A stretch of 42,290 bases of DNA from Laspinema olomoucense D3b (lineage in GTDB: Bacteria > Cyanobacteriota > Cyanobacteriia > Cyanobacteriales > Laspinemataceae): the NCBI RefSeq assembly GCF_025370785.1, contig NZ_JAMXFA010000052.1, positions 1 to 42,290 of the forward strand. The letters are read 5' to 3'. Under the pieces are notes generated by a model. That model was not told the origin of the DNA. It ran no database searches and saw only the letters and a list, made by a program, of their open reading frames with translations. Of this stretch, positions 8,162 to 42,140 are shown piece by piece. Within the stretch, counting starts at the first letter, position 1; each line of letters starts with the position of its first letter. The translations under genes and the position numbers were made by a program.

Positions 8162-9361
8162 ATGACCCAGGTACTTACGGTCTCTTGTAAATTGATGGTT
8201 ACACCACAGCAGATTGAAAAACTTGATGTGGTGCTTGCTGCTTTTGCGAGTTGCTGTGAGTTCATCAATGAAAAGACTCCCGAAAAGCTGACCAATCAGA
8301 TTGCTGTCCAGTCTTTAATTTACAAGGAAGCTAGAGCGCATTCTGGTTTGTCTGCCCAGATGACCATTCATGCCATCCGACGAGTTTGTGCGAATCGCAA
8401 GACGGCAAAGCAAAAAGGTAGACCCGTCAAAGGGTTTGCTCCAACCTCTGCTACCTACGACGTTCGCACCTTCACTTTTAAGGAAACGGATTGGATGGTT
8501 AGCTTGACCATGCTCAAAGGTCGGGAAAAATTCAATCTCCACATCGGTAATTACCAGAAACAGTTACTAGAAGGGCAAACACCCAAATCGGCAACCCTGG
8601 TAAAACGGAATGAGGGCAGTTTTTACTTAAACATTCAGCTAGAGTCTGAACCTCCAGCTATCCCCGATACGGATGATGTGTTGGGTATCGACCTTGGGAG
8701 GACAGATTTGGTCTGCACATCCAAGGGAGAAAAATTCAGCGGCCAACAAATCACGCAGACTAGAGACAGATACAGCCGTGTAAGGGCTTCGTTACAGAAG
8801 AAAGCATCCAAAGGCACAAGGTCAACGCGGCGTCGATGCCGTCAGGTCTTGCAACGGTTAAGTGGACGTGAACGAAGATTCCAAACATGGCTGAACCATA
8901 CCATTAGCTATCGACTCACCCGTACCGCTAAAGCCTCAAACCAGGCGATTGCACTTGAGGATTTGACGGGCATTAGGGAACGCACCAATGAATTGCCACG
9001 CGCTAAGACAGAGCGGAGACGGTCTAACAGTTGGGCGTTCTATCAGTTACGTCAATTCTTGACCTACAAAGGAATAAAGTTTGGTGTAGATGTCCGGATA
9101 GTAGACCCTCGCTACACCTCAAAAACTTGTCATTGCTGCAAAGTAATTGGCAACCGACAAGGTAAGAAATTTGAGTGCCTAAACCTCAAGTGTGGATGGG
9201 TTGGTGATGCTGATGAGAATGGAGCGAATAATATCGCTACTTTGGGGGTTATTGTAAACAACCCCAGAGGCTCCGAGGTAATGTCTTGTTCTTTACAAGA
9301 TGTTGTCTTGAGGGCTACCAAAAGCCCTCATCGTAACGCTATAGCGGTCGGTGTCGGGTAG
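8162..9361 (+). CDS. tnpB: TnpB, RNA-guided nuclease of an IS200/IS605-type element
   Basis: A 399-aa TnpB, normal length. These proteins cut DNA under guidance of an omegaRNA made from the transposon right end. The RuvC residues are present: D177 in GIDLGRTD, E266 in ALEDLTG, and D349/D351 in GDADENGANNI. The zinc ribbon is C323/C326 with C339/C344. The N-terminal OB-like/REC region spans ~1-165. No tnpA transposase is next to it, so the element would depend on one elsewhere. The gene's 3' end folds into hairpins, as expected of an overlapping omegaRNA. ATG 8162 is the only sensible start. Confidence 0.9.
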   Translation: MTQVLTVSCKLMVTPQQIEKLDVVLAAFASCCEFINEKTPEKLTNQIAVQSLIYKEARAHSGLSAQMTIHAIRRVCANRKTAKQKGRPVKGFAPTSATYDVRTFTFKETDWMVSLTMLKGREKFNLHIGNYQKQLLEGQTPKSATLVKRNEGSFYLNIQLESEPPAIPDTDDVLGIDLGRTDLVCTSKGEKFSGQQITQTRDRYSRVRASLQKKASKGTRSTRRRCRQVLQRLSGRERRFQTWLNHTISYRLTRTAKASNQAIALEDLTGIRERTNELPRAKTERRRSNSWAFYQLRQFLTYKGIKFGVDVRIVDPRYTSKTCHCCKVIGNRQGKKFECLNLKCGWVGDADENGANNIATLGVIVNNPRGSEVMSCSLQDVVLRATKSPHRNAIAVGVG

Positions 9362-22764: not shown

Positions 22765-25700
22765 TTATTTCCATTCCCCCTGCAAGGTAAACCCGGCCCA
22801 ATAATAGGGAGACTGCCACTGCTGTGTTTGCGACATCTCCAACTGTGCTTGTCGTAATGCTTGGGCTGGGGTGAGGTTTTGGGAGAGCATTCTTCCGTAA
22901 AACTTCGACATCAATACCGCTGTTGCTTCATCATCCACGCTCCATAGTGACACCACCAAACGCGGTACACCGGCATACATAAATCCGCGAGTCAATCCGA
23001 CCAAACCCTCGCCGCGAATGGAGCCTCCCAGTCCGGTTTGACAGGCAGAAAGTACCACCAAGTCGGCATTTAACGTGAGGTTAAAAATGTCATGTAGGCG
23101 CAGAAAACCATCTTGAGTATTTCCCTGGGAATCTACTAAAGAAAGAACTATTCCGGATAATTCGGGATTGACGCTATTGAGAAAGCCGTGAGTGGCAAAA
23201 TGCACCAGGCGGTATTGATTCAGTTCGTCGCTGGTGACGGTTTGACGGTTGGCATCAAAATCAAAGGCTTTCAGTCTTTCGGCATCGGGAATTAAAGATA
23301 GAATGGCTTCAGCTTCATTGCGAGTAAACTTGAGCCGCGCCAGGGTGCCGCTCACCCCGATATCTGCCGAGGAGCGCGTCACGACTACATCAGTTTGTGC
23401 CGCAATGGTTTCTCCGCTGCCGGGGATGCGTTCGTCTTGGGTGCTGAAGACAGGATCCGCAAAAATTGCCAAGGTCTTAGGTGCAACTGAGCGATCGCCA
23501 ATTTGTTCGCGCAATGCCGCCATAGAGGAGGAACTGGGGAGCGCAATCACCTCATGCTCAATCATTAACGGTTGATAATCGGCCATTGTCGGGTGAGAAA
23601 GTGCCGCAAAGGGAACGTAATGTAACGCACCATCGCCAACAATGAGTAATCGCTTATTACCCAGAAGTTCGGCAACAGGAGCCAGAACCATCTGACTGAG
23701 ATTTGCTGCCGTTTTGGCAATCCTTGGGGGACTATATCTTTGAGTTGGTGCAGTCATTGAATCGCGAAACTCTCGTGCTGCCTTCTCAATTTCAGCGCGA
23801 GGGGGTAACTCGTAGGCGGTTAAACTATCGGGAGTTACCGCCCAAAGAAAACTGCGGTTTTCTCCGAGAGAATATTGTAACAGCAAAGTATTTTCATCCA
23901 GAACCTGCTGCTGAATTTGTTCAGCAGTCAGGGGTTGTGGTTGAGTTAGGGCAGCATATCGGGGTGAAGTTTGGCGGATGGATGCTTTCACTGCATCCAA
24001 TTCGCGCAATAAATTCTCCAGTTCTTGTTTGAGTGCCGTTGCTTGTTCGTCAGTATATTCTACAGAAACTAACTCGATTTGACGAGCAGCCATGACATTG
24101 ATGCGCTGCTGTAAATAGCTTTCTTTTTCGCGCAGTTCGGGGTCAACACCTGCGCGGATATCGGCATTGGCTTCAGCGAGAATTTCCAACAAAGTGCGGG
24201 CACGGGCGCGTTCACTAACATTAAGGGCTTGTTTGTGATATTCTTTCCCTGGGTTTTGCTGATGCAATTGCATCAGCAAGTCGGTGTAAAATTCGTAATA
24301 GGATTGGTTTTGAGCGAAGTAAGATTGGCGGAGCTTTTCACTCTTGATTTGAGTGCGGAGGTCTTCGACAATATTAATAGCTGCTTCAATGTCGGTTTGG
24401 GCTGCTGTTAGGTTATTTTGCTGATGGTTTAAGATAGCCCGATTGTACAGAATGTTGGCTTCTTGAGTCTTAGCACCGAGTTGTTGGGATAAAGATAAGG
24501 CTTCGCTGTAAGATTCTTGCGCGGCTGAGTCTTGACCCAAAGCCACTTGAATCCTGCCGATTTCATTGAGAATGGTTGCTTGTTGAAGGTTATCGTTGAG
24601 GTGTCGGGAGATAATCAGGGATTGGTTGTAAGCATTCAGGGCAGTTTGCCATTGTTGGGAGGCGATGTAGGTGCGACCAATGCCACTTAAGGCAGCAGCT
24701 TCGGCGTGGAGATTGCCGGCGGGTCGGGAGATAATCAGGACTTTGGTGTAGGAATCAAGCGCGTTTTCCCCTTGTTTTAAAGTCGTATAGACATCGCCAA
24801 TATTATTGAAAGTCGTGGCTGCACCGCCTTGATCATTTAATTGATAGAACAGGGGCAGGGCTTGGTTATAGTAAGCCAGGGCAGTTTGCGGGTCGGCTAA
24901 ATTATTGTACAGTTGCCCCAGACTGTTGAAAATTTCAGCTTCTTGTGCTTTGACTCCCGCTTGTTGGGACAGGGATAAAGCTTGGGTGTAGGAGTCGATT
25001 GCGCTTTGAAATTGGCCGAAATTTGCGTAAAGATTGCCAATATAAAATAATGCTGCGGCTGCTTTGGTGAAGTTTCCCGATTGCTGATAGAGTTGGCGAG
25101 ATTCTTCTAATTTTTGAATGGCCTGTTGTCTGGATTCGATAGTTCCTTGGTTAGAGAGTTGGATGCCTTGTAGAAAGGCTATCTCAAGAGCCGATGTTTG
25201 TATTGCTAATGATATGTCCCAGAGGCGGGCAGTGTTATCCCAACTAGCAGTGAGAATTTGACCGCCATCGGGGCTGAAGGTGGCACTTCTGACACTCCCC
25301 TCATGCCCCCGGAAGACAGCGATGAGATTGCCAGAGGTATCCCACAAGCGGGCGGTGTCATCCCAACTAGCAGTGAGGATTTGACCGCCATCGGGGCTGA
25401 AGGTGGCACTGTTGACAAAACTCTCATGCCCCCGGAAGACAGCGATGAGATTGCCAGAGGTATCCCACAAGCGGGCGGTGTTATCCCAACTAGCAGTGAG
25501 GATTTGACCACCATCAGGGCTGAAGGTGGCACTCTCGACACCACGCTTATGCCCCCGGAAGACAGCGATGAGATTGCCAGAGGTATCCCACAAGCGGGCG
25601 ATGTTATCCTCACTAGCCGTGAGGATTTGACTACCATCGGGGCTGAAGGTAGCACTGTTGACAAAACTCTCATGCCCCCGGAAGATGGCAATGAGATTGC

Positions 25701-26247
25701 CAGAGGTATCCCACAGGCGGGCAGTGTTATCCGAACTAGCCGTGAGGATTTGACCGCCATCAGGGCTGAAGGTGGCACTTCTGACAATCCCCTCATGCCC
25801 CCGGAATACAGCGAGGAGATTGCCAGAGGTATCCCACAAGCGGGCGGTGTTATCCTCACTAGCCGTGAGGATTTGGCTGCCATTAGGGCTGAAGGTGGCA
25901 CTTCTGACACTCCCCTCATGCCCCCGGAACAGGGCGATGAGATTGCCCGATCTATCCCACAAGCGGGCGGTGTTATCCCAACTAGCCGTGAGGATTTGAC
26001 TGCCATCGGGGCTGAAGGTGGCATTGTTGACCAAATCCTCATGTCCCAAGAACACCGCCAGTTGTCCCGCAAATGCTTGCACGGGTTGAGCATTTCCCGA
26101 ATCAGTGGCGTTTTCTGGGGTGGGTGTCTGAGAGGGTGACTCTATCCTCGGTTGAGCGCTGATGGGGATGGCGGTTGCGCTGGCGAAAATCGCGCTGATG
26201 AGGACGGCGAGGGAGGGGTGGACTTTTCGGCTATTCTTTCGGCGCAT
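22765..26247 (-). CDS. Secreted WD40-TPR-CHAT protease-like protein
   Basis: About 1160 aa from the ATG at 26247; the longer frame to 26346 opens with TTG and would bury the signal peptide. Residues 1-32 look like a signal peptide (VLISAIFASATAIPISAQ). Seven near-identical 41-aa WD40 repeats (GHExxVxSATFSPDGSQILTAS..NTARLWD) span ~65-350, followed by TPRs to ~640. The C-terminal CHAT domain is a caspase-like peptidase with H1020 in HFATHGF and C1069 in LSACQTGLG. CHAT proteins act as proteases triggered by their sensor repeats; a periplasmic or exported location is unusual for a defence role. Confidence 0.88.
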   Translation of the reverse strand: MRRKNSRKVHPSLAVLISAIFASATAIPISAQPRIESPSQTPTPENATDSGNAQPVQAFAGQLAVFLGHEDLVNNATFSPDGSQILTASWDNTARLWDRSGNLIALFRGHEGSVRSATFSPNGSQILTASEDNTARLWDTSGNLLAVFRGHEGIVRSATFSPDGGQILTASSDNTARLWDTSGNLIAIFRGHESFVNSATFSPDGSQILTASEDNIARLWDTSGNLIAVFRGHKRGVESATFSPDGGQILTASWDNTARLWDTSGNLIAVFRGHESFVNSATFSPDGGQILTASWDDTARLWDTSGNLIAVFRGHEGSVRSATFSPDGGQILTASWDNTARLWDISLAIQTSALEIAFLQGIQLSNQGTIESRQQAIQKLEESRQLYQQSGNFTKAAAALFYIGNLYANFGQFQSAIDSYTQALSLSQQAGVKAQEAEIFNSLGQLYNNLADPQTALAYYNQALPLFYQLNDQGGAATTFNNIGDVYTTLKQGENALDSYTKVLIISRPAGNLHAEAAALSGIGRTYIASQQWQTALNAYNQSLIISRHLNDNLQQATILNEIGRIQVALGQDSAAQESYSEALSLSQQLGAKTQEANILYNRAILNHQQNNLTAAQTDIEAAINIVEDLRTQIKSEKLRQSYFAQNQSYYEFYTDLLMQLHQQNPGKEYHKQALNVSERARARTLLEILAEANADIRAGVDPELREKESYLQQRINVMAARQIELVSVEYTDEQATALKQELENLLRELDAVKASIRQTSPRYAALTQPQPLTAEQIQQQVLDENTLLLQYSLGENRSFLWAVTPDSLTAYELPPRAEIEKAAREFRDSMTAPTQRYSPPRIAKTAANLSQMVLAPVAELLGNKRLLIVGDGALHYVPFAALSHPTMADYQPLMIEHEVIALPSSSSMAALREQIGDRSVAPKTLAIFADPVFSTQDERIPGSGETIAAQTDVVVTRSSADIGVSGTLARLKFTRNEAEAILSLIPDAERLKAFDFDANRQTVTSDELNQYRLVHFATHGFLNSVNPELSGIVLSLVDSQGNTQDGFLRLHDIFNLTLNADLVVLSACQTGLGGSIRGEGLVGLTRGFMYAGVPRLVVSLWSVDDEATAVLMSKFYGRMLSQNLTPAQALRQAQLEMSQTQQWQSPYYWAGFTLQGEWK
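25206..26060 (-). repeat. Seven 123-bp WD40-coding repeats
   Basis: Copies of a 123-bp unit are nearly identical at DNA level, e.g. GGCTGAAGGTGGCACT recurs every 123 bp. The homogeneity points to recent duplication or gene conversion. It also keeps long antisense frames open, which should not be taken as genes. Confidence 0.9.
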
Positions 26248-26346
26248 GGTTGTTGTTTGAATGGTTAATAGAGAATAAGAGAAGAGTGCATGACCATCTG
26301 GGGGAAATGACAGACAAGCAGTTAAGGGAGGTAATGACAACCTCAA

Positions 26347-31612: not shown

Positions 31613-34600
31613 ATGAAACAAAAGACAGTCGAGTTACAAACTGATTTAAACTCTTTAGCCCAAAAACTTTTACAACTTAGCGAACAACTGTCAGAAGCCG
31701 TCAAAAAATTACAAGAACCTTTGATTCCTCCATCATTTGCCCTCGCTGAACAAATTGCTAGAGAACGACAACGATTTGAAGAACTCCGCAGTCTAGTTGT
31801 GCAAGTGGCACAATCTTTTGGAGTTTCTACTCCTGATGTTGAGGAAATCATTTCTATTAAGGATATAGAAGTTATCCTTAGTAGGATTAACGAAGCGGAA
31901 CAAATTGTTAACATAAAGAATCAAGAAGCCTTAAATATATTAGATAAATTTTTGCAAATTCGCTACAGCGATAATGGTGATTTTACTCCTCTAGAACAAA
32001 GTCTATTGCAAGCTTGTGAATTGCACAGTTCGATTTTAAATTGGCAGGAAAATGGCTTACATCCAGAAGCAAAAATCTTAGTATCCGGTGAACATCCATT
32101 CGTGCAGCTTCTCACACTAATTTCCGAACGAGAATCTCCAGACTATCAACGATTGGAAAACTTGCAGAAAGCAGTAGGTCAGTCATTGGGGACGCCTGTT
32201 GCAATAGCTGCATTGACAGGAAAACTCTTTTTTCTATCAGCGTCCACATTTGGAGAGGAGAAGGCTGATAATGTAATTCCAGAATCTGGACAAATTAAAC
32301 CAGAAGTATCTGATATGCCTTCGTTTTCTGACGAAAGAGAGAGGCCAGAGGCAACTGAAAGTGGCACTTCTAAAGAAGCAGAAGTCCCTAATATCCCAAT
32401 TCCCACTCCAACTCATAGCCAATCTGATGCTTTTACTAAAATTCCGACAGATGCTCAAGAAATAGCAGTTTCATTATTAAATAGCAAACTTGAAGAGAGC
32501 CAGAATGAACTTCAATATTTAATCTGGCAACTAATTTATGAAGACAAGGGTAGTCTAGCTTTTAATCTAGCGCGTTGTCTCGAAAGAAAATTCCCCAACA
32601 TTCGTTTCCAATTGCCCTATTGGGTAATTCGAGCAGTAATTTTAGGAGATCATGTACGTTACGAAGTAGGAATTGGAGAAATTGCTAATATCCTTGTGGA
32701 GGATTTTGCAAACTTTAGTGAGAGCTTGTTTACTGGAGATGGTGAGTGGAATCAGGCAATTAGTTTACTTTTAGCTGCTTCAGCACTCCGTCCGGCATTA
32801 CTAGCTCCAAATACTAATGCTTCAGACATTCTCAACCACCTACGACTGGGAGGAGGTCTAAGCCAACTCTTTGAGTATTGTCGAGCAATTGCAAATTACG
32901 GAAGCCAACGCTACGCACTAAATACAACAGCCATCAAAACAGTCAGAAATCAGGCAGACTGGGAAACTGATATAGTGACTTTGCAGCAACAAGTTGAGGA
33001 ATGGTTTTCTCATGCTCCACTTGCTGACATGATTTATGGAGTTGCCAAAGCAGTTTGGGGCGAGTGGCTGAAACCCAATAATTTAATTTACTCTTTATTA
33101 TTGCCGGTACGAGAAAATAATCATAATCAAGTAGAAATAGTTCGCAGGTATGTTGATCAATTATCTTCCGAGTCTCAAATTAATGCAGAGGTTAAGCGAA
33201 CCCAAAAAGAGATTGGCGGTCTTGCAGGTGGTAATGCGATTACAGGTACTGCTCTAAATAGAATTCGGCTCCGAGTTGGAGAAGCTGTGACTTTTGGACG
33301 GCGATGGTTGCAGCTTCAAGAGTCACGTCCAGAGCGAGAAAATGATTTTTCTCAACAGCAAGCGAAGCAACTTAAACAAGAACTATCTAATCGTCACAGT
33401 GCTGTTTTGAAGGAACTAGAGGATTTTGCAGAAGGGAATTTGTCAGGGAATTTGTCAGGATTAATTAAGGCAGGTATTTCCTGCTGCCAAAGATCTGTAA
33501 CCAATATTCAGACTTTGTTTGCTTCTAGTGTTCCTCTAGCAATTGAAGAATCCGCTCCAAAATATCTCTTGTATGCGGATATGCTAAGAATAGCCGAGCT
33601 TTCTTTAGATGGTAACTGGAAGCCTGACAATAGCGAAAATCTAATTGTTAAAGGCATTCTGGAACTATTAGCCCAAAATAATTTTGATTGGTCGGTAAGT
33701 TTTTATTGTCAAAGAGAAAACAGAAATCACGAAGCTACGGAAAAAATTATTGAGTATCTTCGTGCTAAGTCAGAACTTTCGCTCAATATTGAAGAACTCT
33801 CGCGGATGCGAGAAGAGGGGCTACGAGAATGTCGGGATAGTTTACTTAGAGATCTCAAGGAAACCAGAAATCAAATTGAACAAGCAGTTGCTTTAGGAAT
33901 TCTGAAAGAAGCAGATAGATTTGATTATGCAACCAAAATTGTCAATATAGAGAAAGAAGTTGAAACAACTCTGCGGTTCGATCTAAAACATGAGAATCTG
34001 AGAGATATTAAAGCAGCTATCGCTCAAAAGAAAGAAGTAGCAATTGATCAGGTAAGGCAAAGATTAAATGCACTTTTTATAGGTCCTGAACAGCCAAGCT
34101 ATGTACGCATCACCGAACTATTAGAGCGAGGAAATGTGCTGACAGCCAATGAATACATAGACATGGTAGATAGGGGTGATGAAATTCCCAAAGTAGTAGA
34201 AGCAGAATCAAATGAGTTCACTGATTTTTTTCCCATAAAAGTCACTGATATTGACAAATTTATGGAGGAAAATAACCCACCATTTTACATCCAAAAGGTA
34301 CAAAGAAGAGAAAGTTTTTGCGGAATCAATTTAAAACGACCCTCTGGATCTGCAACTGATAGAGCAACTGAAATGCTGAGTGCCTGGTTTTCAGCCAAAA
34401 GAGGGGGTAAATCCCAGCAAATGTCAGAATCAGATGCACGGACTATTTTAGTCCACTTAGGGTTTAACCCATTACGAGTTACAGTAGAACGGAACGGGGG
34501 CCGGATGTGGCTGCAAGTAACCACAGAAGTTATACGTAACAAAGAATTGTGTCCGGTTGCTGCTTACGGTTCAGCCGCTCACGGACAATATCGCATTCTT

Positions 34601-36958
34601 TGCGTATGGGATAGACCCACAGTAGAAGATATTCTGAATACAGTTGGAGAAACTTCTCATGGTTCTCCAGCTTTTGTATTCTTTTTTGGACGTTTGACGG
34701 AAGTGCGACGTAGAGAATTAGCACGACTGTGCCGAGAACGTCGTCGGACATTTGTTTTGATTGATGATATATTAATGCTGTATCTTTGCGGTGCAGAAGA
34801 ACCCAGACTGCGTACATTATTTAAGTGCGCTCTGCCTTTTACCTTTCTAGAGTCTTATGCAACCACTGCTGGATTAGTTCCTCCAGAAATTTTTTACGGA
34901 CGTAGACAAGAGCGAGACTCTATCATTAATTCAATGGGTTCTTGCTTTATTTATGGAGGACGACAGTTAGGAAAAACCGCTTTATTACGTTCTGTAGAGC
35001 GTGATTTCCACGCGCCACAGGAAAGAAGAATAGCTCTTTTTCTTGATTTAAAAGCTGATGGTATTGGTATCCACAGGCCAATTGAAGACATTTGGAGCCT
35101 GTTGGCAGATGAGTTTAAAAAATTTGAAGTTGTCCCCCGTAACAGTCCGACCAATGTAGGTGCGGAAACTCTGCTAAAGCATCTGCAAAATTGGTTGGAA
35201 CAAGATAAAAGCCGTCGCATCCTTTTGTTACTCGATGAATCTGACAAATTTCTTGAATCTGACGGGCAAAAAGAGTTCAATCAAACCAGTCGTTTTAAAG
35301 GGCTGATGGATAAAACAGAGCGTCGCTTTAAGGTAGTATTTGCAGGTTTGCACAACGTTCAGCGTACTACTAGGTTGGAAAACCATCCTCTTGCTCATTA
35401 TGGGGAGCCTGTTTGCATTGGCCCTTTGTTAGAAAATGGAGAGTGGCGGGAAGCTAGAGAGCTAATCAAACGCCCCTTAACAAGCATTGGGTATGAATTA
35501 TCAGACGATTTGGTGACCCGAATTCTTTCTCAAACTAATTACTATCCGAGTTTAATTCAGCTTTATTGTCAGGAGTTGCTCAGAGACGTTAATAAGAATC
35601 ACTTGAAAAAGTACGAACGGAGCAATACTCCTCCGTATGAGATTGGTGACAAGCAAGTTGACGAAGCTTACCAAAGTCAAAATCTCCGCAAGGCTATCCG
35701 TGATCGCCTCCTCTGGACGCTGCAACTAGATCAACGGTATGAAGTGATCGCATATTCCATAGCCTATGAGTCTCTCACGAGTCAGACAGGCATGGTTGAT
35801 GGATTTGCTGTATCCTGGGTTCAGGATACTGTCCTATCTTGGTGGTCAGAAGGATTTCAAGGTAAATCTACAGATGAGTTTCGCGCCCTGCTAGCAGAGA
35901 TGGTGGGTTTAGGAGTTTTAAGAGAAACCGATCAAGGACGCTTTGCCCTCAGAAGTCCCAACGTAGTTTTGCTTTTGGGCACTGAAGCTGAAATTGAGGA
36001 ACAACTTCTGAGAAGTCGTGAACCTTCGTTAGGCTACGATCCTGAAATTTTTAGGTCAGCTTTGCGAACTGACTTATCTCGTCGCAGTCCTTTGACGGTG
36101 CAACAAGAATCAGCCCTGCGACGACGAGAAAATAGCGTTTCTATTATTTTTGGTTGCCCAGCAGCAGGTTTAGATGAGTTGCAGGAGTTCTTAGTCTCAG
36201 CAGTGGGTCAAGAATTTTTTAGTGCTATTGAAGATGTCTCTGAAACATCGGTTTTTACCAACCATTTAAACAACCTAGACAAGCGAGAACGAGAGATTGA
36301 TGGAACGACGATTATATTTGTTTCATCCAATTGTTCTTGGGGTCAAGAATGGGTAAGAGCAGCGCTGGATAAACTTCATAGGCTGAAATCTAAAAAGTCA
36401 TTTGCACGAGTTGTTTTTGTAGCCAATCCCCAAAAATTGTGGGAATTAATGAATGTTAACTGTCTTGATTCATTGGTGTCTCAAGGGGTAAGTCTTTTGA
36501 GTCTCAAACCTTGGCATGACGGAGCTCTTAGGCAGTGGTTGGAGGATTGTGATTTAGCATTGAATAAAGAAAGCCGAGAGAAGATAACTGAGATTACAGG
36601 AAATTGGTCAGTTCTACTTCAGCGTTTGTATCAACAAGCTAAATCCGATCGCCACTGGGAACCTCACCTACAAAAGATTGGAGAGTCATTGACTCATTTT
36701 GATGTCCTGAGTGAATTAGCAATTCTTATGGGGCTTGATAATCCTCATTCCCAACAAAAACAGATATTACGCGCTCTGGCTACTTTAGAAAAAGCCTCTA
36801 CTGAAGATTTAATTGAGATTGTTGATGGCATATCGAATGAAATTGTTTGTCAAACTTTTAGGTGGGCGGAGTTGCTTAGACTTGCATATCCAATTGGCAA
36901 TGGTAATTGGAGTGTCGATCCACTTGTAGGTCGTATCCTGACATCTTTTGGAGAATAA
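31613..36958 (+). CDS. Very large STAND-like NTPase, putative conflict/defence sensor
   Basis: A 1781-aa protein. Residues 1-45 are a heptad-rich coiled coil; ~200-290 a polar linker; ~290-850 a long helical region without a recognised family; ~880-1100 an unknown mixed alpha/beta domain (AFVFFFGRL, RRRELARLCRERRRTFVLID). The NTPase has Walker A GGRQLGKT (1115-1122) and Walker B LLLLDES (D1208, E1209), then helical and winged-helix-like parts to ~1480. Residues ~1507-1620 look like a second P-loop fold with the GKT lost (IIFGCPAAGLDE). It is followed after 6 bp by the HEPN-motif gene. Composition is visibly more AT-rich than the NB-ARC gene nearby. Confidence 0.7.
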   Translation: MKQKTVELQTDLNSLAQKLLQLSEQLSEAVKKLQEPLIPPSFALAEQIARERQRFEELRSLVVQVAQSFGVSTPDVEEIISIKDIEVILSRINEAEQIVNIKNQEALNILDKFLQIRYSDNGDFTPLEQSLLQACELHSSILNWQENGLHPEAKILVSGEHPFVQLLTLISERESPDYQRLENLQKAVGQSLGTPVAIAALTGKLFFLSASTFGEEKADNVIPESGQIKPEVSDMPSFSDERERPEATESGTSKEAEVPNIPIPTPTHSQSDAFTKIPTDAQEIAVSLLNSKLEESQNELQYLIWQLIYEDKGSLAFNLARCLERKFPNIRFQLPYWVIRAVILGDHVRYEVGIGEIANILVEDFANFSESLFTGDGEWNQAISLLLAASALRPALLAPNTNASDILNHLRLGGGLSQLFEYCRAIANYGSQRYALNTTAIKTVRNQADWETDIVTLQQQVEEWFSHAPLADMIYGVAKAVWGEWLKPNNLIYSLLLPVRENNHNQVEIVRRYVDQLSSESQINAEVKRTQKEIGGLAGGNAITGTALNRIRLRVGEAVTFGRRWLQLQESRPERENDFSQQQAKQLKQELSNRHSAVLKELEDFAEGNLSGNLSGLIKAGISCCQRSVTNIQTLFASSVPLAIEESAPKYLLYADMLRIAELSLDGNWKPDNSENLIVKGILELLAQNNFDWSVSFYCQRENRNHEATEKIIEYLRAKSELSLNIEELSRMREEGLRECRDSLLRDLKETRNQIEQAVALGILKEADRFDYATKIVNIEKEVETTLRFDLKHENLRDIKAAIAQKKEVAIDQVRQRLNALFIGPEQPSYVRITELLERGNVLTANEYIDMVDRGDEIPKVVEAESNEFTDFFPIKVTDIDKFMEENNPPFYIQKVQRRESFCGINLKRPSGSATDRATEMLSAWFSAKRGGKSQQMSESDARTILVHLGFNPLRVTVERNGGRMWLQVTTEVIRNKELCPVAAYGSAAHGQYRILCVWDRPTVEDILNTVGETSHGSPAFVFFFGRLTEVRRRELARLCRERRRTFVLIDDILMLYLCGAEEPRLRTLFKCALPFTFLESYATTAGLVPPEIFYGRRQERDSIINSMGSCFIYGGRQLGKTALLRSVERDFHAPQERRIALFLDLKADGIGIHRPIEDIWSLLADEFKKFEVVPRNSPTNVGAETLLKHLQNWLEQDKSRRILLLLDESDKFLESDGQKEFNQTSRFKGLMDKTERRFKVVFAGLHNVQRTTRLENHPLAHYGEPVCIGPLLENGEWREARELIKRPLTSIGYELSDDLVTRILSQTNYYPSLIQLYCQELLRDVNKNHLKKYERSNTPPYEIGDKQVDEAYQSQNLRKAIRDRLLWTLQLDQRYEVIAYSIAYESLTSQTGMVDGFAVSWVQDTVLSWWSEGFQGKSTDEFRALLAEMVGLGVLRETDQGRFALRSPNVVLLLGTEAEIEEQLLRSREPSLGYDPEIFRSALRTDLSRRSPLTVQQESALRRRENSVSIIFGCPAAGLDELQEFLVSAVGQEFFSAIEDVSETSVFTNHLNNLDKREREIDGTTIIFVSSNCSWGQEWVRAALDKLHRLKSKKSFARVVFVANPQKLWELMNVNCLDSLVSQGVSLLSLKPWHDGALRQWLEDCDLALNKESREKITEITGNWSVLLQRLYQQAKSDRHWEPHLQKIGESLTHFDVLSELAILMGLDNPHSQQKQILRALATLEKASTEDLIEIVDGISNEIVCQTFRWAELLRLAYPIGNGNWSVDPLVGRILTSFGE

Positions 36959-36964
36959 AGCGAT

Positions 36965-38116
36965 ATGACTCGTTTTTGGTGGCAACTCCCCGGTCCGAGT
37001 CAATTTGTCGAACGGGTTGTTCAAGACTTTAGAGATGGAAAAAATGTCATTCTCTGTTTACCAGAACATTTACCAAGCGGTTTGTCGAGCGCTATCCGGT
37101 CTGAACTTGGCGACGATTGGGATTGGCAGAAGATTTCTGTATCTTCTGAAAGCTCAGGCGAACCTGTTCATTTCCTCTTCGACCATTTTGTAGGCGAAAT
37201 TAGCTCAAATGAAGTTCGGAATGCTCGTACATTGGCACAACATCAAAATTTTGCTGGCAAGATTGTCTGGTTGGATGATTTGACTCCCAATGTTTGGCCT
37301 GTCTGGAAAAAATTTATTTTAGACTACGAACAACCATGTCGGAATATCCCTAAGCTTTATCGCACGCTTTTTTGCGTCTCGTTAGTTGGGAAACTGGCTC
37401 TCGATCCCCCAGCCGAAGAAGTATGTTTGTCCCACCATTTTTGGAAGGGTGTCGTTGACCGTATGGATATGATGTTGTTCACTTCTCAGCTTTTTCAAGG
37501 CAAACGATTGCCCGATTTACAAAAGCGGGTAGCTATCTCAGTAGTAACAAATATTGCTCTTTGGGACTGCAATATTAGCAAGCGTCTGGCTTATGAAAAA
37601 CTTGAACATATTCTTAAACCTTTACCAATTCTTCATCAGATTGCTGGGGAACGTAACTGGTGTGATTGTAATTATGAATTATCCGAGAGATGGTGTAAAG
37701 GAATGAAAGATATTATTGAGAGTGAAGAGAAAATTCACTCTGCTGTTTTGGTAAATGGAGTTTTAGATAAAGTAGAAATAGAACGTCGAATCTGGAGCGG
37801 GGAAGTTGGAGAGCTATTGCCATTTGTTGAAGAAAGAAGGCATGATATTCTTAGGCTTCTAGCGGGATTTTTAAAAGTGCCTTTTACGACCAGATTTGGT
37901 GAGGTTATTAAAGATGTTCAAGATTTAGAAATTGGTCATATCGAGTATCAAATTGATGAAAATTGTAGAGTTGTAAAAAGCGACGTTAGAAATCTTGTGC
38001 GGCACTTAAGGAAAATACGCAATGCTCTCTCTCATTTAGAAACGATTAGCCCAGAACTCTTACTGAGCCGAGAAATTACTGACTGGCATCGGATATTAAG
38101 GCGAAACTCAAAGTAG
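36965..38116 (+). CDS. Partner of the STAND NTPase with possible HEPN RNase motif
   Basis: A 383-aa protein with no family I can name. Residues ~18-110 look like a degenerate NTPase fold (KNVILCLPEHLPSGLS where a P-loop would be, WLDD at 102-105 as a Walker-B-like strand). The C-terminal ~60 residues are helical and contain RNALSH (R352-H357), the Rx4H pattern of HEPN ribonucleases. A GGAG site precedes the ATG and the gap to the upstream gene is 6 bp, so they are one operon. An effector released or activated by the STAND protein would fit. The HEPN call rests on a short motif in a fitting context. Confidence 0.62.
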   Translation: MTRFWWQLPGPSQFVERVVQDFRDGKNVILCLPEHLPSGLSSAIRSELGDDWDWQKISVSSESSGEPVHFLFDHFVGEISSNEVRNARTLAQHQNFAGKIVWLDDLTPNVWPVWKKFILDYEQPCRNIPKLYRTLFCVSLVGKLALDPPAEEVCLSHHFWKGVVDRMDMMLFTSQLFQGKRLPDLQKRVAISVVTNIALWDCNISKRLAYEKLEHILKPLPILHQIAGERNWCDCNYELSERWCKGMKDIIESEEKIHSAVLVNGVLDKVEIERRIWSGEVGELLPFVEERRHDILRLLAGFLKVPFTTRFGEVIKDVQDLEIGHIEYQIDENCRVVKSDVRNLVRHLRKIRNALSHLETISPELLLSREITDWHRILRRNSK

Positions 38117-38828: not shown

Positions 38829-41800
38829 CTAGAGGCGCGAGCGAATTTGGTCGCCAAGGGGGTGTTGGTGCAGGCGAGTGGGCAGTCCCGCAGCGAGGCC
38901 AGTGCGGTAGAAATTGATGCAATCTTGGAACTTTTTTTTGAATCGTGGGTGCTCCAATCCCCAGGACTCAAATAGTATTTGTATCCCCTCTAACATCATG
39001 GGTTCAGTACCTTCATAATTGCCTTGCTTTCCTTGAAATCGTGCAAAATTGACAAGATGGATGGCTAAATCGGGATGATTAGGGAGCAGGCTCTTCCGGT
39101 CAATCTCCACGGCTTCCAAGTAGAGGAGTTTGGCAGCGTCGTACTTCCCTTGCTCCTCGTACAACTCTGCCAGGTTGTTGAGATGGATGGCTAAATCAGG
39201 ATGATTAGGGGGCAAGCTCTCCCGGTCAATCTTCAGGGCTTCCAAGACGAGGGGTTCGGCAGCGGTGTAGTTCCCTTGCTCCCGGTACAACGTCGCCAGG
39301 TTGTTAAGAAGGATGGCTAAATCGGGATGATTAGGGGGCCGGCTTTTCCGAGCGATCGCCAAGGCTTCCAAGTAAAAGGGTTCGGCAGCGGCGTAGTTCC
39401 CTTGCTCGTAGTACAACGCCGCCAGGTTATTGAGGAGGATAGCTAACTGCGGATGATTGGGGGGTAGGCTCTCTCGGTCAATCTCCAAGGCTTTTAAGTA
39501 GAGGAGTTCAGCGTCGTTGTACTTTCCTTGCACCCGGTACAAATCCGCCAGGTTGTTGAGGTGGGTGGCTACATCGGGATGATTGGAGGGCAGGCTCTCC
39601 TGGTCAATCTCCAAGACTTCCAAGTAGAGGGGTTCGGCGGCGTCGTACTTCCCTTGTTGGTAGTATAACCCCCCCAGATTGTTGAGGTCGCAGGTTAAAT
39701 CGGGAAGATTGGGGAGCAGGCTCTTCCGGTCAATCTCCAAGGCTTCCAAATAGTGGAGTTCGGCAGCGTCGTACTTCCCTTGCGCCCGGTACAACTCTGC
39801 CAGGTTGTTGAAGTCGCGGGCTAAATATCGATGATTAGGGGGCAGGCTCTCCTGGTCAATCTTCAGGGCTTCCAAGAGGAGGGGTTCGACAGCGGTGTAG
39901 TTCCCTTGCTCCCGGTACACAGCCGCCAGATGGCTGAGGGCAGTCGCAGTGTCTGGATGTTTGTCGCCTAAGCGCGATCGCACCACCGCCACACACTCCT
40001 CAGCCCAAAGTTGCGCTGCTCGATAGACTCCCTGTCCATAATAAAACTGGAGTAATGCCTCTAGCGGTGAAATTACATCCTCATCCCCCACCCAGGGCAA
40101 CAATTCCTCCCACACCTCCTCCAGATGGGGAATCCAGGGGGCAAACTCCCGCGCCTGGGTCATCGTAAAGCGGTCAGGAATATGTTTACCCTGTTTAACG
40201 ATCGCCCCCGCCACTTCCCTCCGCAATTCATCCACCGCCTCCGCAGACAACTCCACCGCCAACCGTTGCCGCACAAACTGCCGCACTAACGGATGCAACC
40301 GCACCCAGTTCCTCTCCCCCTCCAATAGATTCAAATTTAACAACCCGTTGAAAGCCTCGTGCCAATCTTGTAGCTCATCTTCCGTCAGAGGAATCGCCGC
40401 TGCCCCATATAGCCCCAACCGCAGGGCCAACCCCCGCGCCGCCTCCCCATCCAGCCGCGCCCAACTGAACGCCAGGGCCGCCTCCAGCCCGTGGGGATAG
40501 CCCATCTCAATATTTGAGTTTAGGGATTTATGGGTCAGATGTAACCCTTCCATATACTTGGCAATCAGAGAAATTTTATATAACACCAAATACCGCCCTG
40601 CCAACTCCAACCCCAGAGGCAACCCCCCAAACCACCACAACAAATCCTCCACCGCCTCCGGTTCCGCCTCTAGGCGCGCTGGGTCAATGTAGCTGGTCAA
40701 CAACTCCCGCCCTGCGTCATCGGAAAGCTGATCCAGGGGGTAATCCTGCACCCCGGTCCACCGTTCCCGGGTTGTCCGCAACACCCGAAACCAACCCCCG
40801 GGCCGAAACATCGCCAACTGCGCCCCGTCCCGCTCCCGCACCACATCATCCAACACCACCAACACGGCACCCTCCCCAGGCCAATGCTGCCAACAATAGG
40901 CGACGCGATCGGCCACCGTCGCCAACTCCTGGGGGACTTCCACGGCAAAGGTGGTCTGATAAAACAGCAGCAACTGGTCCCCGGGATTCCCTGCTGCCAC
41001 ATCCAGCCACACCACCCCACCGGGAAAATTGCCCGCCTGATATTCCTGGTCCGCCCACTGCCATGCTAATTCGGTTTTCCCTAGGCCGCCCATCCCCGAC
41101 ACTGCCACCTGGTCCGTCTCTGCTAACAACCGGCTCAACTCTGCCTTTGCCACCTCCCGCCCCACGAATTTGGGCACAGTGCGAGCGTAGCGCGAGAGGT
41201 TAGAGGGTGAGTGGGGGTTTTGGGGGGTGACGACGGGGCGAAGCTCATGGATAATGCGATCGGCCTGGTTGCCCATCGTTTGCTCAATCTTTTCCCCTGT
41301 GGCTGTCACCGTCTCCCGGGTGATTTCACCCTCCCGAGTCACCACCCCTTCTAACCACAGCAATTCCAGGGTTAGTTGCTCGGCAAGGGCATGGGAAAGA
41401 GACTGGGTTTGCGATCGCCACTGAGCCACCCGTTTTGCTAAATCCTGCTGACCCGCCGTTAAGTTGCCCAGCAGGTCAAACACCATCCCGGCAAATGCCT
41501 CTTTTCCCTCGGCAAAATCCCGCTTCAACACTTCCCGGATTGCCCTCGGGAAATCTTGATGCAACCGTTGGGCTAGAGTATCCACCTGTCCCGGATTTAA
41601 GGCTCTTAAGGGATACACTGTCCCCGATAGCCACCGCCGGAATCGCTTCCCTCGCCGCACTCTATGTCCCAAGGCGTCAATCACGAGCCGCCAGTCTTCC
41701 CAGGTTGCCAAGGCCCGCATCTGGTCAAAATTCGCTGGTACCGTCGCAAAATAATTCGCCGCTAAATTTTCCTCAAATAACTCCGCCGGGGTCTGATTTC

Positions 41801-42140
41801 CTACGGTTTCCCGGACGATTTGAGGCCAATCTTGCCGCGCGGTTTGGGCCAGCGCTTTCAACGCTCGGCCCGATCGCCCCTTGTGGTCTTTGGCGACATC
41901 TTCAATCACGATGGCGAGCGATCGCCCCACCGCCCGGGTTAAATGGGCATTTCGCAAATCCGGCTCCCCTAACTGAGCATTGAGCGCCCCCAAATCATTG
42001 GCAACAATCCCCCCCGCTACCGCAGTGAGGGCGGTTCCTACTGCGACCAAGGGAACCGAGGGGGTGGCGGCGGTCACTGCTGCCCCCACAACCACCGCCG
42101 CGCCAAAAGTCCCCAACCGACCAGCTATTGCTTGATCCAT
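38829..42140 (-). CDS. NB-ARC-TPR protein (NLR-like)
   Basis: An 1103-aa STAND ATPase. The N-terminus has an Ala/Gly/Val-rich hydrophobic stretch (~12-45) that may insert in membranes, followed by a helical effector region to ~320. The NB-ARC has Walker A GMGGLGKT (349-356), Walker B VLVVLDDV, the GLPLGLELAG motif and an LHPLV segment in the MHD position. The C-terminus holds eight 42-aa TPRs of the kinesin-light-chain type (NNLAxLYxxQGxYxxAE). In bacteria this layout acts as a sensor that oligomerises on ligand binding, often against phage. The gene is markedly GC-rich. The first ATG at 42140 lacks a clear ribosome-binding site. Confidence 0.87.
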   Translation of the reverse strand: MDQAIAGRLGTFGAAVVVGAAVTAATPSVPLVAVGTALTAVAGGIVANDLGALNAQLGEPDLRNAHLTRAVGRSLAIVIEDVAKDHKGRSGRALKALAQTARQDWPQIVRETVGNQTPAELFEENLAANYFATVPANFDQMRALATWEDWRLVIDALGHRVRRGKRFRRWLSGTVYPLRALNPGQVDTLAQRLHQDFPRAIREVLKRDFAEGKEAFAGMVFDLLGNLTAGQQDLAKRVAQWRSQTQSLSHALAEQLTLELLWLEGVVTREGEITRETVTATGEKIEQTMGNQADRIIHELRPVVTPQNPHSPSNLSRYARTVPKFVGREVAKAELSRLLAETDQVAVSGMGGLGKTELAWQWADQEYQAGNFPGGVVWLDVAAGNPGDQLLLFYQTTFAVEVPQELATVADRVAYCWQHWPGEGAVLVVLDDVVRERDGAQLAMFRPGGWFRVLRTTRERWTGVQDYPLDQLSDDAGRELLTSYIDPARLEAEPEAVEDLLWWFGGLPLGLELAGRYLVLYKISLIAKYMEGLHLTHKSLNSNIEMGYPHGLEAALAFSWARLDGEAARGLALRLGLYGAAAIPLTEDELQDWHEAFNGLLNLNLLEGERNWVRLHPLVRQFVRQRLAVELSAEAVDELRREVAGAIVKQGKHIPDRFTMTQAREFAPWIPHLEEVWEELLPWVGDEDVISPLEALLQFYYGQGVYRAAQLWAEECVAVVRSRLGDKHPDTATALSHLAAVYREQGNYTAVEPLLLEALKIDQESLPPNHRYLARDFNNLAELYRAQGKYDAAELHYLEALEIDRKSLLPNLPDLTCDLNNLGGLYYQQGKYDAAEPLYLEVLEIDQESLPSNHPDVATHLNNLADLYRVQGKYNDAELLYLKALEIDRESLPPNHPQLAILLNNLAALYYEQGNYAAAEPFYLEALAIARKSRPPNHPDLAILLNNLATLYREQGNYTAAEPLVLEALKIDRESLPPNHPDLAIHLNNLAELYEEQGKYDAAKLLYLEAVEIDRKSLLPNHPDLAIHLVNFARFQGKQGNYEGTEPMMLEGIQILFESWGLEHPRFKKKFQDCINFYRTGLAAGLPTRLHQHPLGDQIRSRL
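38960..39970 (-). repeat. Eight 126-bp TPR-coding repeats
   Basis: DNA of the TPR array repeats every 126 bp (GCCAGGTTGTTGAG and GATGATTAGGGGGC recur). Outer copies are more diverged than inner ones. Such arrays change copy number by recombination, which would alter sensor specificity. Confidence 0.85.

Follow-up and report, generated by a model that had tools for sequence, protein, structure and literature searches.

The 42,290-base stretch of DNA analysed here (the window) corresponds to the complete contig C59 from the 7.02-Mb genome of the cyanobacterium Laspinema olomoucense D3b. It contains two adjacent genes, which encode a giant STAND NTPase (P0001) and a smaller partner (P0002) in which an inactive STAND-like domain precedes a HEPN domain. 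The pair recurs in relatives, its two proteins diverge together, and the core of the giant is joined to other N-terminal and partner modules elsewhere. We infer that the pair is a chromosome- and plasmid-borne anti-invader unit of the abortive-infection type, a reading to which we assign a probability of about 0.62.

The gene pair and its features

The genes and the features within them are listed below in window coordinates (aa, amino acid residues).

31613..36958, + strand: giant STAND NTPase gene P0001, 1781 aa (open reading frame, Pfam and profile-scan relatives)
31613..32464, + strand: variable region at the N-terminus, aa 1-284 (window protein without a Pfam match here; identity blocks)
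32465..34459, + strand: long helical array, approximately aa 285-949, probable sensor (AlphaFold2; identity blocks)
34469..34849, + strand: alpha/beta domain, approximately aa 953-1079 (DSSP on the model)
34865..35644, + strand: active STAND NTPase domain, aa 1085-1344 (AAA_22; Walker patterns)
34973..34975, + strand: Walker A lysine K1121 (motif in the alignment)
36050..36724, + strand: second, degenerate STAND-like domain without a P-loop, aa 1480-1704 (motif absence; very weak profile match)
36950..36953, + strand: GGAG, Shine-Dalgarno-like, within the end of the giant gene and about 11 nt 5' of the partner ATG (sequence)
36965..38116, + strand: gene of the partner P0002, 383 aa, HEPN preceded by an inactive STAND-like domain (open reading frame, model, profile comparison)
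36965..37747, + strand: AAA+/STAND-like N-terminal domain without a P-loop, aa 1-261 (AlphaFold2 and Foldseek)
37748..38113, + strand: HEPN domain, aa 262-383 (hhalign to Swt1-type HEPN)
38018..38035, + strand: Rx4H motif, R352-H357 (alignment of 53 partners)

An initial annotation, made from the window's letters, had described both open reading frames (ORFs), a 6-bp gap between them and the residues K1121, R352 and H357. The coordinates and the residue numbering were confirmed, the giant's stop codon ending at 36958 and the partner's ATG lying at 36965. The surroundings of the pair hold fewer promoter-like sites than shuffled sequence does (8 versus a mean of 13.9) and about as many terminator-like sites (9 versus 7.0). 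A search for transfer RNA genes found none.

The giant protein

The intact STAND-type NTPase proposed in the initial annotation is borne out by a match to AAA_22 over residues 1109-1250, which at 32.3 bits lies above the Pfam cut-off of 27. In the alignment of this domain the Walker A pattern is found in 34/34 sequences and the Walker B pattern in 31/34, the D-E pair of Walker B is invariant in the aligned giants, and P0001 itself has both motifs intact, as in the P-loop of a STAND NTPase. The C-terminal region, which had been described as a second P-loop domain in degenerate form, does lack the P-loop, with GxxxxGK[ST] found in 0/44 aligned sequences. Its AAA+-like nature depends on a very weak match between the lid region and the profile of the active STAND domain (E 0.014, probability 3%).

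Upstream of the NTPase, aa 285-1095 were modelled by AlphaFold2 with a mean predicted local distance difference test score (pLDDT) of 91.2 as a helical array followed by a small alpha/beta domain. The latter is preceded by a helix, with the element order alpha-beta-beta-beta-alpha-beta-alpha-beta according to DSSP. That order alone raised the possibility of a PD-(D/E)XK-like nuclease; Foldseek found no useful structural match in the Protein Data Bank (PDB) for the model of aa 285-1095 (best E 0.16). A sequence search of the PDB with the giant profile likewise gave no meaningful relative, the match at E 6.5e-7 being to a circular tendon repeat protein on the helical stretch, and NCBIfam returned one chance-level match (E 0.06).

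Conservation along the giant is uneven. Identity to its relatives at loci L015 and L016 is 27-60% across aa 1-300, taken as three blocks of 100 aa, and per 100-aa block it is 35-46% to L015 and 48-76% to L016 over aa 401-700 and 78-93% to both over aa 1001-1400. A faster-evolving sensor mounted upon a constant switch would look like this gradient. The portion from about aa 285 to aa 1781 is common to most of the giants compared, the giants of L021, L022 and L028 lacking most of the helical stretch.

The partner protein

The AlphaFold2 model of the whole partner has a mean pLDDT of 95.7. Foldseek matches to the model include RFC, FtsH, Apaf-1, the STAND protein 6mfv and NRC2 (E 4e-4 to 5e-3), and on the basis of this predicted structure, rather than of sequence, the N-terminus resembles an AAA+/STAND/NLR-like fold. 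The degenerate NTPase fold that the initial annotation ascribed to the partner agrees with the model and with the alignment, in which GxxxxGK[ST] occurs in 0/45 sequences, so that the domain lacks a P-loop. No meaningful relative was found when the PDB was searched by sequence with the partner profile.

The C-terminal Rx4H motif falls within the Rx4-6H pattern of the HEPN superfamily. Loss of the motif in homologues had been named as an observation that would count against the pair, and it is instead kept: R352 is present in 53/53 aligned partners and H357 in 52/53. These 53 are the window protein and 52 of the 55 near-full-length partners from the genome-contig scan described below, the plasmid loci and three others being left out. 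The sole exception for H357 is L069, where the end of the 350-aa ORF fails to align, which makes its counted arginine doubtful too. When a profile of 45 partner C-terminal regions was compared by hhalign with one of five Swt1-type HEPN domains, the two were related with a probability of 78 and an E of 1.8e-5, with the motif in register; other settings gave a probability of 28.6 (E 1.1e-4), compared with at most 0.4 in 30 column-shuffled controls. P0002 is therefore related at the profile level to a known HEPN family. The region is modelled as helices, and among the 50 Foldseek matches listed none is described as HEPN.

Conservation and co-divergence of the pair

Relatives were collected with a core profile of 12 rows (A1). 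The genome-contig scan yielded at least 530 confirmed relatives, from which the best 80 were kept, a sample biased toward the window. A core match is found at 94 loci (L001-L094, with the window as L001), three of which (L001, L002 and L013) were fetched through the partner. A partner-family ORF is present at 67/94 core loci, two of these ORFs being fragments (L035 and L047); the fair count, which excludes the loci fetched by the partner, is 64/91. The partner starts between -163 and +19 nt from the giant's end at 60 of the 67 loci. Exceptions in spacing are L045 (3696), L055 (855), L088 (159, main piece) and L071 (116), and L007, L036 and L049 are outliers whose ORFs begin far upstream since the first start codon was taken. 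Among the 27 loci without a partner, 15 belong to the sigma-70/helicase clade considered below and 12 are others, several of them cut by contig ends. The order of giant and partner is repeated in two more genomes (L142 and L143); L145 extends over a longer part of the L002 genome.

Distances between giant cores correlate with distances between their partners (r 0.85, n = 61), the maximum in 2000 permutations being 0.21. Nonsynonymous (dN) and synonymous (dS) divergence is 0.23 and 1.26-1.31, respectively, for the giant relative to L015 and L016, and 0.16-0.20 and 0.86-1.15 for the partner relative to L015, L016 and L002, with dS near saturation in each case; in both genes dN thus lies far under dS. 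The proposal that a STAND protein and a HEPN partner are coupled thus held up, and the two are also conserved together and co-diverge.

Relationship to described systems

In the part of their account available to us, Kaur et al. (2021; PMC8195603) predicted a mobile operon of two genes, one for an active STAND protein and the other for an inactive STAND protein fused to GT4 or HEPN. In their nSTAND2 system, as in the window, both products have a STAND-type core and one of them, devoid of NTP-binding motifs, carries an effector; HEPN is among the two commonest effectors of that system, for which a hetero-multimer was predicted. The window pair has the active and inactive STAND proteins of that two-gene arrangement, the STAND-likeness of the partner being one of fold only, and corresponds to its HEPN variant. 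Very probably the two are systems of one kind, as judged by comparing descriptions rather than family alignments. The two accounts differ in that no link to sigma-70, PIWI-RE or PLD-SNF2 is named in the available part of the description of the nSTAND2 system, and in that GT4 is its other common effector, whereas Pfam GT4 was found in 0/53 partners here (ends trimmed to 25 aa past the profile). PF20706 (GT4-conflict) was unusable as a test of the GT4 form, as it matches 220/244 cyanobacterial genomes and 14/14 controls. No Pfam match of the giant core is named nSTAND2; nSTAND1 was matched by 2/12 core sequences, below the cut-off (best E 1.1e-4).

Avs (AVAST) proteins combine a large STAND sensor with an effector in the same chain. 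The window pair is like these and other NLR-like STAND systems in coupling a large STAND sensor to an effector, and differs in that its effector is a separate protein. Contig C18 of the same genome (G000; L151) encodes a 1128-aa ORF that starts with a HEPN_Swt1 domain and that we take to be of the DUF499-ATPase type. HEPN-DUF499 ATPases of the Hma/BREX-related Type 1 systems also tie a Swt1-type HEPN domain to a STAND/ORC-like ATPase in restriction-like loci, but in the available descriptions the HEPN domain is N-terminal on the active ATPase (PMC12839542, PMC3710099), while here it lies on a separate inactive-STAND protein. The pPIWI_RE systems share the modules PF13111, PF18157 and PF13032 with alphaproteobacterial relatives of the giant. 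The triad described for them consists of a restriction endonuclease, a DinG helicase and PIWI-RE, and the accessible text of PMC3702460 mentions neither a STAND giant nor HEPN. Fusion of sigma-70 or PIWI-RE to a STAND giant was not found in searches of the open-licence PMC library, nor in the accessible passages of PMC12839542, PMC10853773, PMC3710099, PMC3702460, PMC7641849, PMC13092281 and PMC7159879.

The initial annotation regarded the pair as an undescribed system. Its interpretation as a STAND NTPase with a HEPN partner stands, and neither protein matches PADLOC-DB 2.0.0, but the claim of novelty is weakened by the operon that PMC8195603 predicted, as far as that account was available.

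Exchange of modules among relatives

Reuse of the giant core with sigma-70 and PIWI-RE modules is beyond what one window could show. Among 88 compared giants (window included), 12 carry a sigma-70 module in frame and N-terminal to the STAND giant: L006 (7267-14472), L017, L018, L020-L025, L028, L029 and L062. Pfam identified Sigma70 regions 1.2, 2, 3 and 4 in 3/57 N-termini (E down to 7.6e-26); the 57 deliberately included three from this clade, and a local five-member profile then found the 12. All 12 belong to a sister cyanobacterial clade of 15 loci (L006, L017, L018, L020-L029, L032 and L062). An ORF for a PLD-SNF2 helicase, a type on which Pfam was run for two examples, lies beside 10/12 of the sigma-70 giants and a HEPN partner beside 0/12, compared with a HEPN partner in 63 of the remaining 76 giants. 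Since the sequences are related, this split represents one or a few events and not 88 independent ones. The sigma-helicase form is repeated in one more genome (L146); L148 and L147 are probably the same records as L028 and L027. The H-x-K-x(3-5)-D/E pattern was present in the PLD-helicases of L006, L017 and L018 and absent from those of L020 and L021, so nuclease activity is not assured for all of them. In the window, tblastn detected no sigma-70 remnant below E 0.067.

A midpoint-rooted core tree places the window giant, together with L015 and L016, as the sister group of the sigma/helicase clade (support 0.95); the latter clade of 15 has a support of 0.999. Because both sister groups sit among HEPN-bearing lineages, the HEPN output looks older and later exchanged, although nodes just below the sister split have supports of 0.12-0.77 and the midpoint root is a guess.

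A second exchange involves PIWI-RE (PF13111, PF18157 and PF13032 in Pfam), found at three alphaproteobacterial loci (L005:2036-12256, L007:2545-12321 and L008:3092-12430). The module is fused to the giant in L005 and split off just before it in L007. The L008 protein is named 'RNaseH domain-containing protein' in RefSeq, which fits the counts among the 57 N-termini (RNaseH_pPIWI_RE in 3/57, MID and X in 2/57). Another large ORF lies upstream, cut by the stretch end in L005 and L008. A 3177-aa giant on the viral contig L150 (957-10490) also matches the local PIWI profile (E 1.8e-90). The partners of L005, L007 and L008 keep Rx4H and have an added C-terminal P-loop domain, which is AAA_33 above the cut-off in L005 and L008. 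The partners of L012 and L013 have an added P-loop domain as well, with no PIWI-RE match in the stretch examined, and AAA_33 in L012 is below the cut-off. We take this AAA_33 domain to be polynucleotide-kinase-like. A partner of this kind is reminiscent of Las1-Grc3, the pair of a HEPN nuclease and a polynucleotide kinase covered by the available part of PMC10942766. On the Agrobacterium plasmid locus L012:12373-18649, ThiF-family and patatin-like genes follow the giant and its HEPN-kinase-like partner. The relatives present the giant core as a platform on which both N-terminal and partner modules have been exchanged.

Distribution and genomic neighbourhood

The closest relatives of the giant core, among the best 80 of at least 530, are cyanobacterial. 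The core was found in 6/386 cyanobacterial genomes, the window's own included, and the partner in 4/247 genomes of the phylum of genome G386, itself included. As labelled in their records, many of which are metagenome-assembled genomes, the kept relatives come from more than 10 phyla and include cyanobacteria, acidobacteria, planctomycetes, verrucomicrobia, proteobacteria, Myxococcales, Gemmatimonadota, Paenibacillaceae, Calidithermus, Thermoflexales and others. At least 6 of the 80 homologous loci are on contigs longer than 3 Mb, and tblastn placed the giant in 27 plasmid records and the partner in 8. The giant found no match in the phage records searched; in IMG/VR, relatives occur at two loci only, L149 and L150, each with a partner-family ORF. 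Contig C59 is itself plasmid-like in gene content, with Pfam matches for a MobA/VirD2-like relaxase, a single-strand-binding protein and a primase-polymerase, and a match to an actin-like N-terminal domain under the cut-off. No terminal overlap indicating a circular contig was found.

Proximity to known defence genes had been suggested as a check on the pair. On either side of the HEPN-type loci, the survey took the first ORF between 150 and 1000 aa long under a longest-ORF rule, giving 97 ORFs, some of them distant. These match 133 PADLOC families, of which 25 are listed. The families listed include pAgo, QatD and WYL with 2 members each, and DpdE, ZacA, DrmA, DrmD, BrxH, HmaA, HmaB, DarG, LmuA and a type II restriction enzyme with 1 each. 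The matches span DISARM, BREX-helicase, Hma, Dpd, pAgo and restriction models, as counts without a matched background. QatD models also catch TatD-type DNases, two of which Pfam shows on the same ORFs, and Pfam identifies ordinary genes among the 97 as well. At L088 (3286-17186) the pair lies between a DUF1156/N6-N4 methylase (Pfam) and an SNF2-type helicase (local profile), and at L093 (1-8499) the pair is followed by an SNF2-type helicase (local profile). In both it is placed as if substituting for the DUF499 ATPase of Hma/BREX-related systems.

Proposed mechanism and alternatives

In the mechanism that we propose, the giant would both sense and switch, an infection cue or foreign nucleic acid being detected by its variable N-terminus together with the helical array. 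The STAND domain of the giant would bind ATP and oligomerize, and the partner would be recruited through its inactive STAND-like domain. Oligomerization would bring HEPN domains together, the site containing R352 and H357 could then cut RNA, and cleavage of RNA would stop the growth of the cell and of the invader. This reading draws on the coupling and co-divergence of the two genes, on the P-loop of the giant's STAND domain and its lack in the partner N-terminus, on the nearly invariant HEPN motif and the profile match to Swt1 HEPN, on the AAA+/STAND/NLR-like fold predicted for the partner, on the patchy spread of the pair, on the defence-type matches among its neighbours, and on N-terminal regions that vary beside a well-kept stretch at aa 1001-1400.

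Several results weigh against this interpretation or parts of it. Foldseek TM-scores of the partner are 0.23-0.37 by query length with large root-mean-square deviations, and an E of 0.001 was reached by 5 matches only; no sequence link emerged when the profile of the partner N-terminus was compared with those of the giant's two STAND-like domains. The HEPN profile used for comparison is built from no more than five sequences, of which four are closely related, Pfam HEPN_Swt1 scores 13.5 bits on P0002, below its cut-off of 27.5, and that family reaches E <= 0.01 in just 3/53 partners. With respect to coupling, the nearest neighbour of giant and partner agrees for only 29/61 pairs, co-divergence is partly owed to shared descent, and at L144 a partner occurs on an 11.3-kb contig where a giant is not detectable. 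The neighbour survey was uncontrolled and took a single ORF on either flank, and one helicase may account for several of its models. The absence of PADLOC-DB matches extends to 0 families at E <= 1 for both proteins, and the sister clade's fusion to sigma-70 could instead indicate control of transcription.

The strongest alternative, though an unlikely one, is a DNA-restriction complex like those of the BREX-related/Hma systems, in which the giant would scan DNA, an SNF2 helicase-nuclease would be the true effector and HEPN a back-up killer. It draws on the pairing of sister-clade giants with PLD-SNF2 helicases, on the helicases at L088 and L093 and the methylase at L088, and on the role of HEPN as a back-up effector in HEPN-DUF499 ATPases in the available part of PMC12839542. 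Among the window ORFs scanned, including those adjoining the pair, Pfam found no methylase or SNF2 helicase, tblastn gave no helicase match below E 0.68, and such a helicase accompanies only 3/63 HEPN-type giants within the stretch examined.

Somewhat less probable is an addiction module resembling a plasmid toxin-antitoxin system, with the HEPN protein as toxin and the giant merely restraining it. The plasmid-type genes of contig C59 are compatible with this, and HEPN toxins are often found in two-gene modules (PMC3710099, in its available part). The giant of the sister clade persists without a HEPN partner, however, and the homologous loci on contigs above 3 Mb are also unfavorable. Moreover, a 1781-aa ATPase with a variable N-terminus far exceeds the familiar sizes of antitoxins. 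Least probable is a regulatory rather than defensive role, with the giant responding to the state of the cell by changing transcription or RNA turnover. The in-frame sigma-70 regions 1.2-4 of the sister clade speak for it; a sparse distribution in the sampled genomes, some defence-type neighbours (in the uncontrolled survey) and HEPN and PLD nuclease domains in the partners speak against it.

Other genes of the window

Convergent with the pair is a gene for a 1103-aa protein with NB-ARC and TPR domains (38829-42140, - strand), a further STAND-type protein on the contig. Also present are genes for a 1193-aa protein with WD40, TPR and CHAT domains (22765-26346, - strand) and for an OrfB/TnpB-type protein with a Cas12f1-like TNB domain (8162-9361, + strand).

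Implications

Beyond the anti-invader role favored for the window pair, we tentatively suggest, with less than even confidence, that the giant core is a general STAND relay into which sensors and effectors are plugged. The sensors would be sigma-70 reading RNA polymerase or invader promoters, PIWI-RE for guide-directed recognition, or helical arrays as in the window; the effectors would be a HEPN RNase, HEPN with a polynucleotide-kinase-like domain, or a PLD-SNF2 nuclease-helicase. If this is true, the direct wiring of a sigma factor or Argonaute relative to an NLR-like switch would add a new principle to bacterial immunity. One homologous core connects NLR-like STAND switches, PIWI/Argonaute guides and sigma factors, which have been studied separately so far. 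RNA polymerase is often targeted by phages, and should the sigma-70 form prove to be a sensor, bacteria may guard this enzyme by an NLR-like alarm. The window pair represents a simple two-gene version, sister to the sigma-70 clade and with what is likely the older HEPN output, and K1121, R352 and H357 provide residue-level handles on the model.

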